Of a stretch of 37,426 bases of DNA, positions 2,553 to 31,033 are shown in pieces. Numbering within the stretch: position 1 is the stretch's first letter; every line of letters starts with the position of its first letter. Position numbers and translations under genes: made by a program. Under the pieces are notes generated by a model. It was not told the DNA's origin and made no database searches. It saw nothing but the letters and a program-made list of their open reading frames with translations. Source of the DNA: an uncultured bacterium (GTDB taxonomy: Bacteria; Verrucomicrobiota; Kiritimatiellia; RFP12; UBA1067); assembly GCA_902801025.1 (NCBI GenBank), contig CADCGZ010000041.1:1-37426 (forward strand), read 5' to 3'.

Positions 2553-3485
2553 CTATCCGCGGCCACAGCGGTCCTCGCCGTGGGCGCGGATCCACTGCTT
2601 CGCCAGGTTCACCGCCGGGACGTCCAGCGCCGCCGAGTAGGTGGGGTGGAAGATGAGCCCCGTCACCACCTCCTCGCGGAGAAGCCTCTCGGCGAACTCG
2701 AGCTGCATCTCCATGCGGCTCGCCGAGACAGGCTCCCCAAGCGTGTAGTCCCACATGTACACGCCCATCAGAAGGCTCTTATCCGGGCCGATGAAGTCGC
2801 GCATTTGCCGTACGGAGCCCTCGTGCTGGCCGAGGTTCTCCGAATGCCAGCACCAGAAGCTCGTCTCGTCGCACATGTCAATATATGGCTTGAATTCGGG
2901 CTTGATGCCGTCCTGGTCGGAATAGACCACTATCGAGAGGCGGAGGTCGTTCTCGTGAAGGCGGTCGGCGATCTTCTTCACCACGTCCTCGGTCTGCGTG
3001 TACTCCTTCACGGCGAAGAAGTCGTCCAGAAACCCGCCCGTGAAGTTCGGGAAGGCGGGCTTTATCTCGTTGATCGCCCAGTCAAGCTTGTCCCAGACGG
3101 TGCCGTTGCCGCCGTCGGTGATGCCGAAGGCGAAGCGCTTGAGCTGGCGGAACTGCTCGATGTAGTCGCCCCACGGATGGGCGGGTTTGTTGCCCCATCG
3201 GATGAAGCAGTCGTTGGGAATGCCCATGAGCCTGCAACCTTCCGCCTGCTCAACGGTCGGGCCCTCCCACTTGCGCCCGCTGCTCTTCTTGAAGCCGGAC
3301 TTGTGGCACATCTGGGCGTGGTGCCCCCACATCCACAGCCGGTCGCGGATCGTTGGTCCGTAGAAGGACGACCCCTGGAAAATGGACCGACATCCCGCTG
3401 CGGACGCCACGGCCGAGGCGGCGGCGATCCCGCCGAGGAAGTCTCTGCGACTGACGCCGCCGTTCATCGTTTCCGTCTTGTCCAT
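2553..3485 (-). CDS. Tat-exported, possibly lipid-anchored protein of unknown function
   Basis: The protein has 310 residues. Residues 12-32 form a twin-arginine signal (SRRDFLGG, then an Ala-rich hydrophobic run) ending in Ala-Ala-Gly-Cys, which fits a lipobox with lipidation at the Cys. The mature part is rich in Trp, Asp and aromatic residues (RLWMWGHHAQMCH, WDKLDWAINEI, DETSFWCWHSEN), resembling TIM-barrel glycosidase-like proteins, though I cannot name a family or catalytic residues. The start at 3485 has GAGAAAG upstream; an internal Met seven residues in would also preserve the Tat motif. It sits 26 bases downstream of the CE15-GH16 gene on the same strand, so the two are probably co-transcribed and a role in polysaccharide breakdown is plausible. 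Confidence 0.7.
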   Translation of the reverse strand: MDKTETMNGGVSRRDFLGGIAAASAVASAAGCRSIFQGSSFYGPTIRDRLWMWGHHAQMCHKSGFKKSSGRKWEGPTVEQAEGCRLMGIPNDCFIRWGNKPAHPWGDYIEQFRQLKRFAFGITDGGNGTVWDKLDWAINEIKPAFPNFTGGFLDDFFAVKEYTQTEDVVKKIADRLHENDLRLSIVVYSDQDGIKPEFKPYIDMCDETSFWCWHSENLGQHEGSVRQMRDFIGPDKSLLMGVYMWDYTLGEPVSASRMEMQLEFAERLLREEVVTGLIFHPTYSAALDVPAVNLAKQWIRAHGEDRCGRG

Positions 3486-3511
3486 GCTTTCTCTACGAGC
3501 GGCGGATCAGC

Positions 3512-5440
3512 TTATTGGCAGCGCCAGTGGCGGAAATACTGGACGGAGAACGTCTGCGGGAGGTCGGCCTTGTCAGGCTCGCCGACCCAGCCGTACATGA
3601 TCTCGCAGTCGAAAGTCACGTGCATCGGCCTGTGGAAGTGGTCGTTCGGGCGCGAGAACATCTCCACCCCGTCCGCGTACCACTTCATCTCCTTCTCCGT
3701 CCAGAGGAATCCGTACTCGTGGTAGCCGTCGGCAAAATCGAAGTCGACCTTTTTGCGGCTCGACTTTTCCGGCAGCTTCTCGACGCTGCCGAGGACGCGG
3801 CCTTCAAGATATGGCGTGCCGAGGCGGTGGACAGTGTTGTAGAACGCGCGCGCGCAATCGGACTTCTTAGATCCCTCCTTGCCGAAGATCTCGAAGATGT
3901 CGATCTCCTCGGAGAAGTCGCCGGGGCGATACTTCTTCTTCGGCTCGTCCGAAAGCGGATCGTATAGCCAGAACGCGTTGCACACCGCCGCCTTCATCGA
4001 CTTCGCGCGGCATTCGTAGTAGCCGTAGAACGTCTTCTTCTTCGACTTCACGATCGCCGTCGCGTATGTGTCGAAGCCACGCGCGAGATTGTCCGCCGTT
4101 TTCTCGTCTTCCCTTAGAAGCCGAGCCGTCAGTTTAAGCTCCCCTTTCGCAACATCGACATTGTCGCGCGAGAAAAGGAACCCGCTGCGCCGCCCCTGGA
4201 ACGACTCAACCCAGTCGTCCCACTTCGAGCGATCAAGCGTCTCGCCCTCGAATTCGTCGCTCGCCTGCTCGTCAAACACAAACTGGCATCCAACATCCGC
4301 CAGCGGACATTCGAAAGTCTGCTGTCGTCCGTCGACTGTCTGCGGAGGAGTTTTTGCAACACCCTTCCAGTGCCTTTCCGCATGCGAAAGATAGATGTTC
4401 CAGTCGAATAGCCCGAGATCGTGCTTCCCCTCGTGGCAGTGGTACGAGACACACGACGGATCCTTCCACGCCGCGCGGGCGAGCTCAGTCGCCTTGCGCT
4501 CGCCCTCGGGACCCGCCCAGTCGTCAGTACTCCCCGAGCCAACAGCCAAAAGCCGCGGCGCTACGCAGGAAAGAAGCTCGTGCTGGTCAAAAGGCATCTC
4601 CTGCTCGCGGTTGACCCACAATGTGTAGTCGAGACAGAACCAGTACTGAAATGTGCGGACGATCTGCGCTATGTGCTCCGACTTAGGGAGGTCGAGATGG
4701 TTGAGCTTCGCGCCGGCGCAGCCTGAGCCATTCACGCAGACGCACGCGAAGCGCGGGTCGGTGACTGCCGTCCAGAGCGCGGTCTTTCCGCCGCGGGAAT
4801 GCCCTACGACGGCGACCTTCTTCGCGTCTATCTCCGGGACTGTCTCGAGCCAGTCGAGCGCACGGCTCGCGCCCCAGCCCCACGCGGAGATCGTGCCCCA
4901 GAGCTTCGGGTCCCTGTACGCTCCCGGCTTCTCGAAGGCCTCGAACACGCCTTTCGTGTTGCCGGTGTTGTAGTCAGGAGCCACGTCCCACGTATAGAAC
5001 GAGACGGCCGCGAAGCCGCGCTTCACAATCTCCTCCACCGGAAAGAACGGGCTCTTCTTTTCGCGCTCGGGGTCGCAGTTCGCCTTGTAGTCGCGATTGC
5101 AGATGAGAAGAAACGCCGGAACTGGCCCCTTCGCATCGGCCGGCACAAACGCCGTCACGGGAAACGAATTAGTCCCAAACGAACCGCCGTAGACGACGCG
5201 AACTTGCTTGCGCACCATCTTGCCGCCTGGCATAAGCTTGTCGTCCGAAATCTTCTCGAACTTGAGAAGCAGCGGCTTCTCCGCCTCCGCAGGGCGACGC
5301 CCAAACTCGTTGTCGGCGAAGAACGCGACGATTTCATCGCGCGACTTCTCTCCGATTGCGTTAATCCGCGTCTCCGCCGCGCCTGCAGCAAATGCGACGA
5401 CCGCGCCTGCGGCGAGCGACAACATCCCTTTCATCACCAT
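3512..5440 (-). CDS. Secreted two-domain enzyme: CE15-like glucuronoyl esterase fused to GH16
   Basis: The protein has 642 residues with a Sec signal peptide at 1-22. Residues about 30-360 match carbohydrate esterase family 15. The nucleophile elbow GHSRGGKTALW holds Ser215, and the His region CHEGKHDLGLFDW (about 335-347) fits the catalytic His. CE15 enzymes cleave ester bonds between glucuronic acid on xylan and lignin or other alcohols. After a linker (365-390), residues 390-642 match GH16. EEIDIFE carries Glu512, Asp514 and Glu517, the usual nucleophile/assisting Asp/acid-base triad, and the GYYECRAK strand is typical of endo-beta-glucanase/galactanase members. The GH16 substrate cannot be read from sequence. 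The start at 5440 follows AAAGGAAA and its own promoter. The fusion is unbroken, with no stop or frame change between domains. Confidence 0.85.
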   Translation of the reverse strand: MVMKGMLSLAAGAVVAFAAGAAETRINAIGEKSRDEIVAFFADNEFGRRPAEAEKPLLLKFEKISDDKLMPGGKMVRKQVRVVYGGSFGTNSFPVTAFVPADAKGPVPAFLLICNRDYKANCDPEREKKSPFFPVEEIVKRGFAAVSFYTWDVAPDYNTGNTKGVFEAFEKPGAYRDPKLWGTISAWGWGASRALDWLETVPEIDAKKVAVVGHSRGGKTALWTAVTDPRFACVCVNGSGCAGAKLNHLDLPKSEHIAQIVRTFQYWFCLDYTLWVNREQEMPFDQHELLSCVAPRLLAVGSGSTDDWAGPEGERKATELARAAWKDPSCVSYHCHEGKHDLGLFDWNIYLSHAERHWKGVAKTPPQTVDGRQQTFECPLADVGCQFVFDEQASDEFEGETLDRSKWDDWVESFQGRRSGFLFSRDNVDVAKGELKLTARLLREDEKTADNLARGFDTYATAIVKSKKKTFYGYYECRAKSMKAAVCNAFWLYDPLSDEPKKKYRPGDFSEEIDIFEIFGKEGSKKSDCARAFYNTVHRLGTPYLEGRVLGSVEKLPEKSSRKKVDFDFADGYHEYGFLWTEKEMKWYADGVEMFSRPNDHFHRPMHVTFDCEIMYGWVGEPDKADLPQTFSVQYFRHWRCQ

Positions 5441-27327: not shown

Positions 27328-28338
27328 CTACCAGGCAAGGGCGCCTAGAGCGTCCGTAACGAGCCGCGCGGCGTGTTCGTCGCGCTCCTTCGAGGAAGAG
27401 GAACCAAGGACGACGGCGACGGCGCGCTTTCCGCTGCGCGTTCCCGTAATCACGACAGACGAGCCGCCTGCGTCGATATAGCCCGTCTTGAGCCCGTCAA
27501 CCGCCTCGCGGCCGTCGGGATTGAAAATCTTCTGCTTGTCCTTCACCATCACGTTGTTGTGATTGCAGAGGTTCTTTACAATGCTTTCGCCGGGCGCGAG
27601 CTCCGTCTTGCGCAGCGGCTCGTTGACGCGGCGCGTAACGGACGCGCGGTATCCCTTCGCAGTCTTCACGAGGTCACACGTCTTCACCGACGTGAACTCA
27701 AGCGTCTCCGGGAACTTTAGCAGCGCCAGCGCAAGCTTCAACTGGTCGCCGGCAGTCGATACGTTGAAGGACTTCCACGGATAGCGCTTCGCTGCATTGG
27801 GCGGCAGCCCGTTCGGGTTGTAGTAGCGCGTCCTCGTCATGCCAAGCTCCGCCGCGCGCGCGTTCATCTTGGCGACGAAGCCGTCGAACGACCCCGCGGA
27901 ATGGACAGCGAGCACTATCGCAGCGTCGTTCGCGCTCTCGACCATCAGCGCGAGGCAGAGGTCGCGAACTGCCATCGACTCACCCACCTTGATGCCGATC
28001 CAGCTCGCCTCGCAGCGGTTGACATCGGGAGTGGCGACAGCCATCGAGTCTAGGCCGTACTTTCCCGCCTTGACGTCCTCGAGCACAAGGAAAAGCGTCA
28101 TCAGCTTCGTAACGCTCGCGGGATACGCCTCGGCCTCGGCATTGTCGGTGAAGAGGACTCGCCCCGTAGCGGCGTCAGCGCAAATCGCGCCGACATAAGG
28201 CGAGCGGCGGTGCGCCGTCTGGACGGGCGCGACTGCTGCGCGACGCGACGCTGAAGAAACCTGCTTTTTCGCCGGAGCCGCGGATGCGGCAACGACTGCG
28301 AAGACGGCAATCGCCGCTATGGCGGTGCGAAGCGTCAC
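27328..28338 (-). CDS. dacA: D-alanyl-D-alanine carboxypeptidase (PBP5/6, DacA type)
   Basis: The protein has 336 residues and a Sec signal (TLRTAIAAIAVFAVVAASA). The serine-type penicillin-binding domain shows all three active-site motifs: SVTK (Ser75, Lys78), SAN (Ser135-Asn137) and KTG (284-286). It removes the terminal D-Ala from peptidoglycan pentapeptides in the periplasm. The start is a GTG at 28338 overlapping the upstream stop as GTGA; the open frame continues upstream to 28941, but that part is a shadow of the EIIA fusion gene. The C-terminal anchoring beta domain of E. coli PBP5 is missing: the protein stops soon after the catalytic domain, so it is probably soluble in the periplasm. 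Confidence 0.9.
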   Translation of the reverse strand: MTLRTAIAAIAVFAVVAASAAPAKKQVSSASRRAAVAPVQTAHRRSPYVGAICADAATGRVLFTDNAEAEAYPASVTKLMTLFLVLEDVKAGKYGLDSMAVATPDVNRCEASWIGIKVGESMAVRDLCLALMVESANDAAIVLAVHSAGSFDGFVAKMNARAAELGMTRTRYYNPNGLPPNAAKRYPWKSFNVSTAGDQLKLALALLKFPETLEFTSVKTCDLVKTAKGYRASVTRRVNEPLRKTELAPGESIVKNLCNHNNVMVKDKQKIFNPDGREAVDGLKTGYIDAGGSSVVITGTRSGKRAVAVVLGSSSSKERDEHAARLVTDALGALAW

Positions 28339-29159
28339 TTCACGGCGTGGCGCGTGGCCTTGACAAGCATTTTCCAGAGAGCGGCGGAATCCTTGGACGC
28401 AACGGCGGCGGCGCGGACCTCCTTCTTCGAGAAGGCCTGCGCAAGCCCGGCCATGAGGCGGAGGTAGAAAGCACTCACGGCGACGGGAATCGCCGAAAGG
28501 AACACGAGGTGCACTTTCTCGCCAGCCCAGTCGACGCCTTCCTTCGAGACGCCCATTGCAAGAGTGAGCCCTCCGCCCTCGACGCCTCTCACGTGCGGAA
28601 ACGCAAGGTCGTCCATCGCCGTGGAAAGCACGGCCTCGCGGTCCATCGCTGAAGACACGAGACTGTCGGCGTTCGATATGAAGTGGTTGTCCTCCATCGC
28701 CTTGGCGAGTGTGGCGATCGCGTCCTCCCGCGACGTTGCGCCGAGGTCGACGACCATGAGTTCCTCGGCGGAGAACCGCGAGATGCCGGTCTTGGGCTCG
28801 TCGCGATCGCCCTTCTCCGCGACATTGCGCGCGGCGTCGACGTCGTCGGCGAAGAGTATCCGCCCGCAGCTCGAGCAGGCGACGAGATGCTGCGCGAGAC
28901 GAACCTGCTGGGCCTGCGCGATCGGAACCTGCATGCCGCACACGCTGCAGCAGCCGTTCGACATAGCTGCGAGGACGATGTGGCTCTTCTTGTAGAGCCG
29001 CGAGTAGAGCCCGGAGCTCTGCGGGTCGAGTTTCTTCTGAAGCTCGTCTATCGACTCGTTGAGAGAATCGAGGTGGCTGCCGTCACCCGTCTGGTGGTGT
29101 TCGTCACGTGTGAGGACGAGCTCCTGGAGCTGCCTCATTATGTTTATCTGGCTTTTCAT
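28335..29159 (-). CDS. Fusion of a CT398-like zinc ribbon and a PTS EIIA (PtsN-like) domain
   Basis: The protein has 274 residues and is cytoplasmic. Residues 1-60 look helical (a short coiled coil). Residues 70-100 form a C4 zinc ribbon with C71-x2-C74 and C95-x2-C98 (CSVCGMQVP, CSSCGRILF), as in the zf-RING_7/CT398-like family (PF02591). Residues about 130-270 match PTS EIIA type 2: REDAIATLAKAM, then LAFPHVR with the phosphorylated His at 189, then GVSKEGVDWAG and VHLVFLSAIP. PtsN-like EIIA proteins regulate nitrogen, potassium and envelope functions by their phosphorylation state. No HPr, EI or sugar permease is nearby, favouring a regulatory role. ATGA overlap upstream with the DtxR-like gene and GTGA overlap downstream with dacA. 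Confidence 0.75.
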   Translation of the reverse strand: MKSQINIMRQLQELVLTRDEHHQTGDGSHLDSLNESIDELQKKLDPQSSGLYSRLYKKSHIVLAAMSNGCCSVCGMQVPIAQAQQVRLAQHLVACSSCGRILFADDVDAARNVAEKGDRDEPKTGISRFSAEELMVVDLGATSREDAIATLAKAMEDNHFISNADSLVSSAMDREAVLSTAMDDLAFPHVRGVEGGGLTLAMGVSKEGVDWAGEKVHLVFLSAIPVAVSAFYLRLMAGLAQAFSKKEVRAAAVASKDSAALWKMLVKATRHAVK

Positions 29160-29522: not shown

Positions 29523-30593
29523 TCACTTTCCGAAAGGGCTTGTCTTCTTCATGAGATGCGCGAACTTGACGGCCTCGATCGACTCCTCGAGGGCGAGCGG
29601 AAACGCCGCCGCAGTGCGCACCGTGTCGTAGACGTGGCGCCAGAACGCGCTCTGGCCGTGGAGGGTCCCCTTCGGAAGCGAGACGGGGATCTTCTTCACC
29701 GGCACGTTCTCGTGCATGTCCAGAAGCTCCGGCGTCCTTACGGACGAGCGGCGGCGCGGGAACGAGAAGTCGGGGTCTATCACCGTGAGGACGCCCTCCG
29801 TTGCGCCAGGGAGCACCTTGAACGTCCCGCGCGAGCCGCGTATGACGAAAGACGGGACCCTGTCGTCGGCAAGCACTCCGCCATTAAACTCGAGGTCCGC
29901 CGACACCGCGCCGCGCGTCCTGAGGTTAACGTGCGCGCAGTCCTCGGCGTCGCCGAGCGAAGCGATGCGCTTCAGCTCGCTCCACATCTGGATCGGAGGA
30001 AGCGGCAGGAGTCGCAGCGCCTGCAGGACGAGGTCGGTCATCGCATAGTACGCGGCGCCGCCGCCAAGCCGCTTCACCGTCTGCCAATCGTCACGTCGGA
30101 CAAAGTCCTCGCGCCTGATGCAGACCTGGTATATGTCGCCGAGCCGTGTGTCTGACATTTCCATCTTCGCGAGCAGATAGTCGGGAGCGAAGAGCCCGCG
30201 CTGGAACACGAGAAGCCTGTTCTTCGCCTTCTGCGCGGCGCCGCGCAGGACCTGCGCATCGTCGAACGTGAGAGCGAGGGGCGTCTCAAGGAGGGTCCAG
30301 AACCCCCTCTCGAGCGACATGAGCGCATGGTTCACGTGGTCGACCGAGCATGTCGCTATGTCGACGACGTCGATGTCGCGCTCGTCGAGCATGTCCGAGA
30401 ACCTGCGGAACATCTTGCAGTCGGGGAAGTCCTTCGCGATTATGTCGCGGCGTTCCTTCATGAGGTCGCATGCGGCAACGACCTTGAATAGCGCGGGATG
30501 CGCCTTGAAGATCGGATAGTGATCCTCGAACATCGCGCGACCAAGCCCCATGAGGGCGACGCGCACCGGCGGTCTGTGGCTGTCGGCTTTCAT
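29523..30593 (-). CDS. Gfo/Idh/MocA-family oxidoreductase-like protein, probably altered active site
   Basis: The protein has 356 residues. The N-terminal Rossmann part reads VALMGLGRAMFEDHYPIF, close to the GxGxxG/A nucleotide-binding turn, followed by VVAACDLMKERRD and IDVVDIATCSVDHVNHALMSLERG, all typical of the family. At the family's highly conserved E-K-P motif this protein has E-T-P (LETPLAL): the lysine that takes part in catalysis is replaced by threonine. The C-terminal beta-sheet domain (about 130-356) is present. It may bind NAD(P) or sugar without being an active dehydrogenase. ATGA overlap with nrdR. The ATG at 30593 is chosen over the longer frame to 31019, which merely shadows nrdR. 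Confidence 0.8.
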   Translation of the reverse strand: MKADSHRPPVRVALMGLGRAMFEDHYPIFKAHPALFKVVAACDLMKERRDIIAKDFPDCKMFRRFSDMLDERDIDVVDIATCSVDHVNHALMSLERGFWTLLETPLALTFDDAQVLRGAAQKAKNRLLVFQRGLFAPDYLLAKMEMSDTRLGDIYQVCIRREDFVRRDDWQTVKRLGGGAAYYAMTDLVLQALRLLPLPPIQMWSELKRIASLGDAEDCAHVNLRTRGAVSADLEFNGGVLADDRVPSFVIRGSRGTFKVLPGATEGVLTVIDPDFSFPRRRSSVRTPELLDMHENVPVKKIPVSLPKGTLHGQSAFWRHVYDTVRTAAAFPLALEESIEAVKFAHLMKKTSPFGK

Positions 30594-31033
30594 TTCTTCA
30601 CTATCTCCGTTATTGCGGACAGGAACTGGGCGACGTCCTTGAACTGGCGGTAGACGCTCGCAAACCTTATGTACGCGACTTCGTCGACCTTGTGGAGCTC
30701 GTGCATGACAAGCTCGGCGATCTTGTCGGCCGACACCTCGTCGCCCTCGAGGTTGGCGACGACGTGGTCGATCATCGTGCGGATCTGCTCGTCGCTCACC
30801 GGGCGCTTGCCGCACGCAATCCTGATGGCCTTGTCCACCTTCGAGCGGTCGAACGTCTGGCGAGTGCCGTCGCGCTTTATGACGAGCACCTCGTCGCGGT
30901 CGATCTCCTCGTAGGTTGTGAACCTGTAGCCGCACTTGAGGCACTCTCGGCGACGGCGTATCGCCGCGCCGTCGCGCGCTCCGCGCGAGTCGAGCACCTT
31001 GTCGTCGTCTATTCCGCATTTAGGACATTTCAT
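30590..31033 (-). CDS. nrdR: Transcriptional repressor NrdR
   Basis: The protein has 147 residues. The zinc ribbon is CPKCG (3-7) and CLKCGYRFTTYE (about 31-42), and the ATP-cone domain spans about 48-140 (VIKRDGTRQTFDRSKVDKAI, then ACGKRPVS, then VAYIRFASVYRQFKD). NrdR senses ATP/dATP and represses ribonucleotide reductase genes by binding NrdR boxes. No nrd gene and no NrdR box are recognised in this window. GAGGTG 9 bases upstream of the ATG is the likely SD. It lies just after rnfE, separated by octamer repeats, and overlaps the next gene. Confidence 0.96.
   Translation of the reverse strand: MKCPKCGIDDDKVLDSRGARDGAAIRRRRECLKCGYRFTTYEEIDRDEVLVIKRDGTRQTFDRSKVDKAIRIACGKRPVSDEQIRTMIDHVVANLEGDEVSADKIAELVMHELHKVDEVAYIRFASVYRQFKDVAQFLSAITEIVKK

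Follow-up and report, generated by a model that had tools for sequence, protein, structure and literature searches.

A zinc-ribbon-EIIA fusion protein widely conserved within a class of Verrucomicrobiota and its possible role as the output of a regulatory phosphotransferase system

On the reverse strand of the window, by which we mean the whole 37,426-nucleotide stretch that was analyzed, one gene joins in a single reading frame a short helical hairpin, a zinc ribbon of the C4 type, and a phosphotransferase system (PTS) EIIA domain (Table 1). The stop codon of an MntR-like regulator gene overlaps the ATG of the fusion gene as ATGA, and the stop of the fusion gene in turn overlaps the GTG start of a carboxypeptidase gene as GTGA. 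The neighbors named by a first-pass annotation (a DtxR-like metal regulator, NrdR, and a carboxypeptidase) were all found with Pfam.

Table 1. Features of the fusion gene and its neighbors, in window positions
Feature	Position	Strand	Basis or detail
Zinc-ribbon-EIIA fusion gene	28335..29159	-	ATG at 29159, TGA 28337-28335; 274 aa plus stop
Short helical hairpin, residues 1-60 (helices 2-24, 30-42, 46-58)	28980..29159	-	AlphaFold model
C4 zinc ribbon PF02591 (Zn_ribbon_9), residues 71-102	28854..28949	-	30.3 bits, cut-off 29.1
Ribbon ligand codons	C71 28949-28947; C74 28940-28938; C95 28877-28875; C98 28868-28866	-	
EIIA domain, Mtl/Fru/Ntr fold (PF00359), residues 124-271	28347..28790	-	72.1 bits, cut-off 27; Z 20.1 to 1a6j
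His189, predicted phospho-acceptor, motif AFPHVRG	28593..28595	-	aligns to E. coli EIIA-Ntr (1a6j) His73
MntR/DtxR-like regulator (Fe_dep_repress), 120 aa	29156-29518	-	PF01325 and PF02742; MntR NCBIfam models below cut-off
NrdR	30590-31033	-	Pfam
D-Ala-D-Ala carboxypeptidase	27328-28338	-	PF00768, 143.1 bits (query one codon longer at start)

Both domains of the fusion protein scored above their curated Pfam cut-offs, the ribbon by a small margin, and the PTS_EIIA_2 match spans residues 132-265. PF00359 and PF02591 were also both matched in 54/54 diverse relatives (E ≤ 0.01), bearing out the initial proposal that a CT398-like C4 ribbon is joined to an EIIA. The four cysteines (C71, C74, C95, and C98) and His189 are unchanged in 70/70 order-level rows and in 106/106 rows when relatives from the class and phylum, with identities to the window protein down to ~30%, are included. 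The phospho-histidine is thus intact, as had been claimed, and the cysteines, whose conservation the first-pass annotation had suggested checking, are all kept. R100 of the ribbon and R174, E175, T180, P188, R191, and P225 are likewise invariant in the 106-row alignment, which leaves out the two-gene loci and the partial copies of one genome (G271) described below, and whose rows come from different genomes except for a few paralogues, related genomes being non-independent. In the hairpin, Q12 and E20 are invariant in the order-level alignment (A1). A frame or assembly artefact is ruled out by the matching of both domains across relatives and by the unchanged cysteines and His189, and the zinc-ribbon-EIIA fusion is real.

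By the curated definitions, the protein belongs to neither PtsN nor CdsZ, as its NCBIfam scores lie far under the cut-offs: 26.3 bits against 138.7 for the PtsN equivalog (TIGR01419), and 36 bits against 275 for CdsZ, where the match covers only model positions 159-239 of 251. The label "PtsN-like" given at first therefore fits the fold, which is that of EIIA-Ntr, but not the curated family. The coiled-coil model CT398_CC (PF24481) gave no match in the fusion protein at E ≤ 1.

An AlphaFold model built on 57 rows (pLDDT 84.6, pTM 0.71) shows, in order, the short helical hairpin, the ribbon, a weakly predicted linker around residues 118-120, and the EIIA fold. Its C-terminal half matches E. coli EIIA-Ntr with a Foldseek E of 1.0e-7, and VIA-align superimposed 145 residues within 124-271 at an rmsd of 2.0. 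The N-terminal half, over residues 1 to 105-106, matches both CT398 (Foldseek E 1.5e-4) and HP0958 (3.0e-4), each with a VIA-align Z of 13.4 and an rmsd of 1.9-2.0 over 105-106 aligned residues. Middling Z scores of this kind can be reached by chance with helical models; here the sequence profile matches concur (7.9e-13 for CT398 and 2.3e-10 for HP0958).

Most of a class of bacteria from gut and environmental habitats has retained the fusion, which also occurs in a second group of the phylum. Within its order it was matched in 149 of 161 genomes (E ≤ 1e-8), three of these matches being weak (G054, G069, and G153; E 6e-9 to 5e-15) and possibly other EIIAs, and it was present in all 48 order genomes with a completeness of at least 90% and a contamination of at most 5%. 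An even draw of 387 genomes over the phylum gave 150 matches at E ≤ 1e-10, which by kinship fall into 42 of 44 genomes from the order, 77 of 87 in the rest of the class (one of them, G432, only at 2.9e-11), and 31 in other classes. Ten of these 31, from families f60 and f66, are full length or nearly so, and among the seven listed of the other 21, the match is confined to the EIIA domain in five and extends over two adjacent genes in G447 and G372. Family f10 lacks the fusion in 6/6 genomes; each has one DUF164 match, and the frames of 246-292 aa are of the long type, so the idea that f10 holds split genes is not supported. Over 84,980 species, a scan matched 284 stretches, 272 of them relatives, and the titles among the best 80 of the 284 include Kiritimatiellae/Kiritimatiellia/Kiritimatiellaeota, Verrucomicrobia, Lentisphaerae, "Akkermansia" metagenome-assembled genomes, and further bacteria. 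The named record nearest to the window protein is from a Kiritimatiellae bacterium, with 95% identity.

The domain combination is also unusual, as first stated. A literature search, with most subscription papers beyond its reach, found no published report of a zinc-ribbon-EIIA fusion. PMC3372290 gives 346 of the 349 DUF164 proteins in Pfam in 2011 as having no further domain; three with a further domain were counted and one bacterial case is named, and an EIIA fusion may have been among the remaining ones.

Some genomes carry additional copies. On contig C1 of G271, the fusion or its C-terminal part occurs six times (at 4394, 15903, 27414, 3064021, 3075532, and 3087043) with a spacing of ~11.5 kb, towards both contig ends, the copy at 27414 being full length and the other five partial; this pattern reflects either a tandem amplification or faulty assembly where the circle closes. 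Diverged second copies, 46-51% identical to the window protein, were seen in four genomes (L074, L075, L076, and L077), and just upstream of the one in L077 lies an EIIA gene whose product the tree places among the Na/H exchanger-linked EIIAs. An ordinary stand-alone EIIA adjoins the fusion in divergent orientation in some genomes of the class (L110/L265, L112, and L264 of G196).

The two parts of the protein are also found as separate genes. A hairpin-ribbon profile was searched against 80 genomes lacking the fusion (10 class members and 70 hand-picked from 256 genomes of other classes) and matched 69 of them, with 30 loci returned. In eight of these 30 (L228-L234 and L241), a short ribbon gene, encoding 104-122 aa from the proposed starts, is followed on the same strand by an EIIA gene 3-110 nt after its stop; because the choice of genomes favored those matching EIIA and included the known pairs of G447 and G372, 8/80 is no frequency. 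Another 21 loci hold long coiled-coil DUF164 genes, and none of them has a same-strand downstream EIIA within ~1.5 kb, as judged with a search profile made from fusions, which very distant EIIAs could escape; at one long-type locus, L245, an EIIA lies tail-to-tail on the opposite strand. Apart from the three short genes described below, the remaining matches of the hairpin-ribbon profile are in frames of at least 236 aa. Fission by sequencing error was rejected for the two-gene loci, as the same layout recurs in eight genomes with differing gaps. Adjacent same-strand pairs in eight loci constitute gene-fusion ("Rosetta stone") evidence for joint working, so the zinc-ribbon and EIIA parts probably work together. 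Relatives with two separate genes, which the first-pass annotation had set against its own proposal, thus do exist, but in these eight loci the genes are adjacent on one strand and support the pairing.

Other arrangements were seen as well. In G170, nothing of the EIIA kind lies near the short ribbon gene L254, the last of the 30 loci, nor near the second short ribbon gene of that genome, L267. In G251 (L268), a short ribbon gene (3282-3719) precedes an EIIA-like gene (3723-4259, E 3e-9) with no histidine at the phospho position, which makes this locus a possible pair that lost phosphotransfer.

The history of the parts was followed in an IQ-TREE phylogeny of 74 EIIA domains, drawn from 36 hand-picked fusions (L121 counted twice), 8 adjacent genes, and 29 hand-picked unlinked genes. 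The chosen fusions form one clade (UFBoot 100) to which the adjacent-gene EIIA of L231 is sister (98), the remaining seven adjacent EIIAs cluster together (100), and the split between the unlinked EIIAs and the fused plus adjacent ones has a support of 80. The tree of the N-terminal ribbon domain (55 rows, ~90 columns) recovered neither the fused ribbons nor the fused plus adjacent ribbons as one group, which we ascribe to too little signal. The simplest reading is a single fusion of an old gene pair in a common ancestor of the class and the second group; gene fission in the other lineages may be an alternative history.

The EIIA half has its phospho-histidine in a PH motif, in line with its PF00359 membership. 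Tyr232 aligns with His120 of EIIA-Ntr (1a6j), which we take to be the other active-site histidine, and this position holds Tyr in 103 and Phe in 3 of the 106 rows, so the second active-site histidine was not found. A tyrosine also stands there in 7/29 unlinked EIIAs, including the exchanger-linked EIIA of the window's genome, and Tyr232 therefore need not count against function.

Donors for phosphotransfer were sought with Pfam in 61 genomes chosen over the phylum. EI (PF05524) and HPr (PF00381) were present in 61/61, and PF02378 (EIIC), the sole permease family searched, in 3/61, not including the window's genome (83% complete). The earlier remark that no PTS partners lie nearby holds for the window genes scanned, but HprK, HPr, and EI are encoded elsewhere in the same genome, where hpf (PF02482), hprK (PF02603/PF07475), ptsH, and ptsI stand side by side on contig C4. 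Four PF00359 matches were found in that genome, namely the fusion, an EIIA joined to a Na/H exchanger, one that stands alone, and one that carries an additional N-terminal part. Regulatory chains without PTS transporters have been described for Chlamydiales and others (PMC2405797, PMC13104625).

A second EIIA fusion family was observed alongside, in which an HTH_17 DNA-binding domain (PF12728) is joined to an EIIA (L001:1249-1950, L245:595-1440, and L279:2-742). The HTH_17 match is over the cut-off in L245 and at 26.5 against 27 in L279; the N-terminal part of L001, from contig C6 of the window's genome, looks alike by eye and has no Pfam match. The EIIAs of L001 and L245 carry the active-site motif LHP instead of PHG.

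With EI and HPr in all 61 genomes and the PF02378 permease in so few, the fusion would most likely stand at the end of a regulatory phosphorelay, and we see an even chance for the explanation that we prefer, in which it is the output protein of a transport-less regulatory PTS resembling PTS-Ntr. EI would hand phosphate from PEP to HPr, HPr~P would phosphorylate His189, and the phosphorylation state of His189 would switch, in cis, what the hairpin/ribbon half binds. Less certainly, that half might bind the gene-expression machinery (RNA polymerase or a sigma factor, or RNA), like its distant relatives CT398, FlgZ, and BB0713. Several observations count against the fusion being such an output protein: the replacement of the second active-site histidine by Tyr232, the near-zero net charge of the ribbon, the absence of the long RpoN-binding coiled coil of CT398 in a genome that has a separate long DUF164 protein (L006), the His-less gene of L268 and the G170 ribbon genes without an EIIA, the single origin missing from the N-domain tree, the lack of a widely conserved neighbor, and family f10 without the fusion.

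Published work on the relatives of the ribbon half describes several kinds of partner. CT398 and FlgZ are reported to bind sigma54 and FliH (PMC5947703), and CT398 to bind the sigma54 holoenzyme (PMC5947703, PMC7482065). In CT398, RpoN is contacted by the coiled coil only and the ribbon helps with FliH/CdsL (PMC5947703); in FlgZ, cysteine mutants of the zinc ribbon lose RpoN and the ribbon cysteines are needed to protect it (PMC3372290). BB0713 of Borrelia, with a coiled coil and a C4 ribbon, is described as having RNA chaperone activity in vitro and as sedimenting with RNA polymerase subunits (PMC13285594). Our alignment did not show the strongly basic ribbon that would hint at RNA binding, as the mean net charge over residues 60-115 is +0.5 (-1 in the window protein).

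Homology of the ribbon to the CT398/FlgZ type, the presence of RpoN in 60/61 genomes, and the location of ptsN within rpoN clusters of Proteobacteria (PMC2405797) could all be taken to suggest a sigma54 (RpoN) chaperone or anti-factor like FlgZ or CT398, now under phosphorylation control. We regard this as improbable, since the long coiled coil by which CT398 contacts RpoN (PMC5947703) is absent from the fusion and a long DUF164 paralogue in the window's genome is available for that role. With 26.4 and 25.9 bits, this paralogue (contig C82, L006) falls narrowly short of both cut-offs; for PF24481, with a cut-off of 27, its 26.4 stands beside 75.1 for an f10 protein. Sigma54 is also found in genomes without the fusion, and its near-universal co-occurrence is uninformative as a functional clue. 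A plain RpoN chaperone role is thus unlikely, which leaves contact of the ribbon with RNA polymerase, RNA, or some other protein as a candidate activity of this half.

The gene neighborhood raises the matter of metals. In CT398, HP0958, and MSMEG_4306, the zinc of the DUF164-type C4 ribbon has a structural role, and the zinc of the fusion is probably structural rather than sensed. The MntR-like gene adjoins the fusion in 34 of the 80 named loci, where with three exceptions the identity to the window protein is 65% or more, and in 42 of 159 loci in a wider count with some genomes repeated; upstream genes elsewhere vary (purH-, carB-, and glyA-like, by eye). Given this adjacency and the overlap with the fusion start codon, the ribbon could be imagined to sense Zn or Mn status and to control phosphate flow into the EIIA together with the co-transcribed regulator. 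We find such a metal-response protein very improbable, as the MntR association is limited to close relatives and the zinc of these ribbons is structural. The metal regulator emphasized in the first-pass annotation is therefore present beside the fusion, but is conserved only near the genus and was kept as a local feature, so the link to metals is weak.

At the loci compared, no neighboring gene that could point to a target was seen to be conserved more widely than a genus or family. Two local arrangements were noted. In family f60 (L119, L123, L135, and L136), the fusion is preceded on its own strand by a gene resembling that of ribosomal protein S1, the one in L135, which alone was scanned, having six S1 stretches. 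In family f6 (L068, L070, and L072), a gene of the histidine phosphatase superfamily lies downstream on the same strand (PF00300, scanned in L070); SixA, a phosphohistidine phosphatase, has been reported to target a phosphotransferase system (PMC6282199).

The hairpin and ribbon could otherwise serve as a scaffold or docking module by which an EIIA-Ntr domain is brought to a client (a transporter, a kinase, or a SpoT-like enzyme), with the output coming from the EIIA surface as in stand-alone PtsN. Stand-alone EIIA-Ntr regulates by binding partners, which would suit such a module, as would the lack of a widely conserved neighbor and the location of 11 of 17 invariant columns in residues 134-232, though the EIIA half is also longer. 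In the same direction, a 2026 review states that none of the PtsN targets is known to take over phosphate from PtsN (PMC13104625). However, the four cysteines and R100 of the ribbon are equally invariant, and the pairing with the ribbon also occurs as two separate genes, making a passive tether unlikely; docking is for us a possible but rather doubtful explanation.

On a broader reading, the fusion might show DUF164 ribbon proteins to be regulatory-PTS effectors in general, each a transcription- or RNA-binding protein controlled by PEP-derived phosphate on an EIIA. The control would act in cis in the fusion and in trans where the two genes are separate, perhaps also in trans from PtsN to CT398 in Chlamydiae; we offer this speculatively and consider it unlikely in so broad a form. 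Both halves come from widespread families with poorly known partners, the permease-less regulatory PTS chains and the DUF164 proteins (CT398 and FlgZ), and the class-wide fusion, together with the gene pair elsewhere, points to which two proteins are worth studying as a pair. As this is a single small protein, phosphorylation by HPr and binding by the zinc-ribbon half are measurable side by side.

Compared with known systems, the fusion shares with EIIA-Ntr (PtsN) the fold, the phospho-histidine motif, and the Arg-Glu motif before it, and the window's genome resembles the nitrogen PTS in having EI and HPr as donors and no PF02378 permease found. It differs from PtsN in its N-terminal hairpin and zinc ribbon and in the tyrosine at the second active-site histidine, and its gene is not beside rpoN (contig C13) or hpf in the window's genome. 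With the DUF164 (PF02591) proteins CT398/CdsZ, FlgZ/HP0958, and MSMEG_4306 it has in common the C4 ribbon, the CxxC...CxxCxRILY/F pattern, and the fold, whereas the long coiled-coil hairpin of the CT398/FlgZ type is missing and an EIIA is added C-terminally. The two-gene loci of the phylum's other classes, with a hairpin-ribbon gene and an EIIA gene, have the same parts, order, and strand, but encode two proteins, and 7/8 of their EIIAs keep the second histidine. WS2117 of Wolinella succinogenes, a NIF3-DUF164 fusion (PMC3372290), carries NIF3 rather than a PTS domain as its partner, and offers a precedent for a DUF164 ribbon fused to the product of a gene that neighbors it elsewhere.
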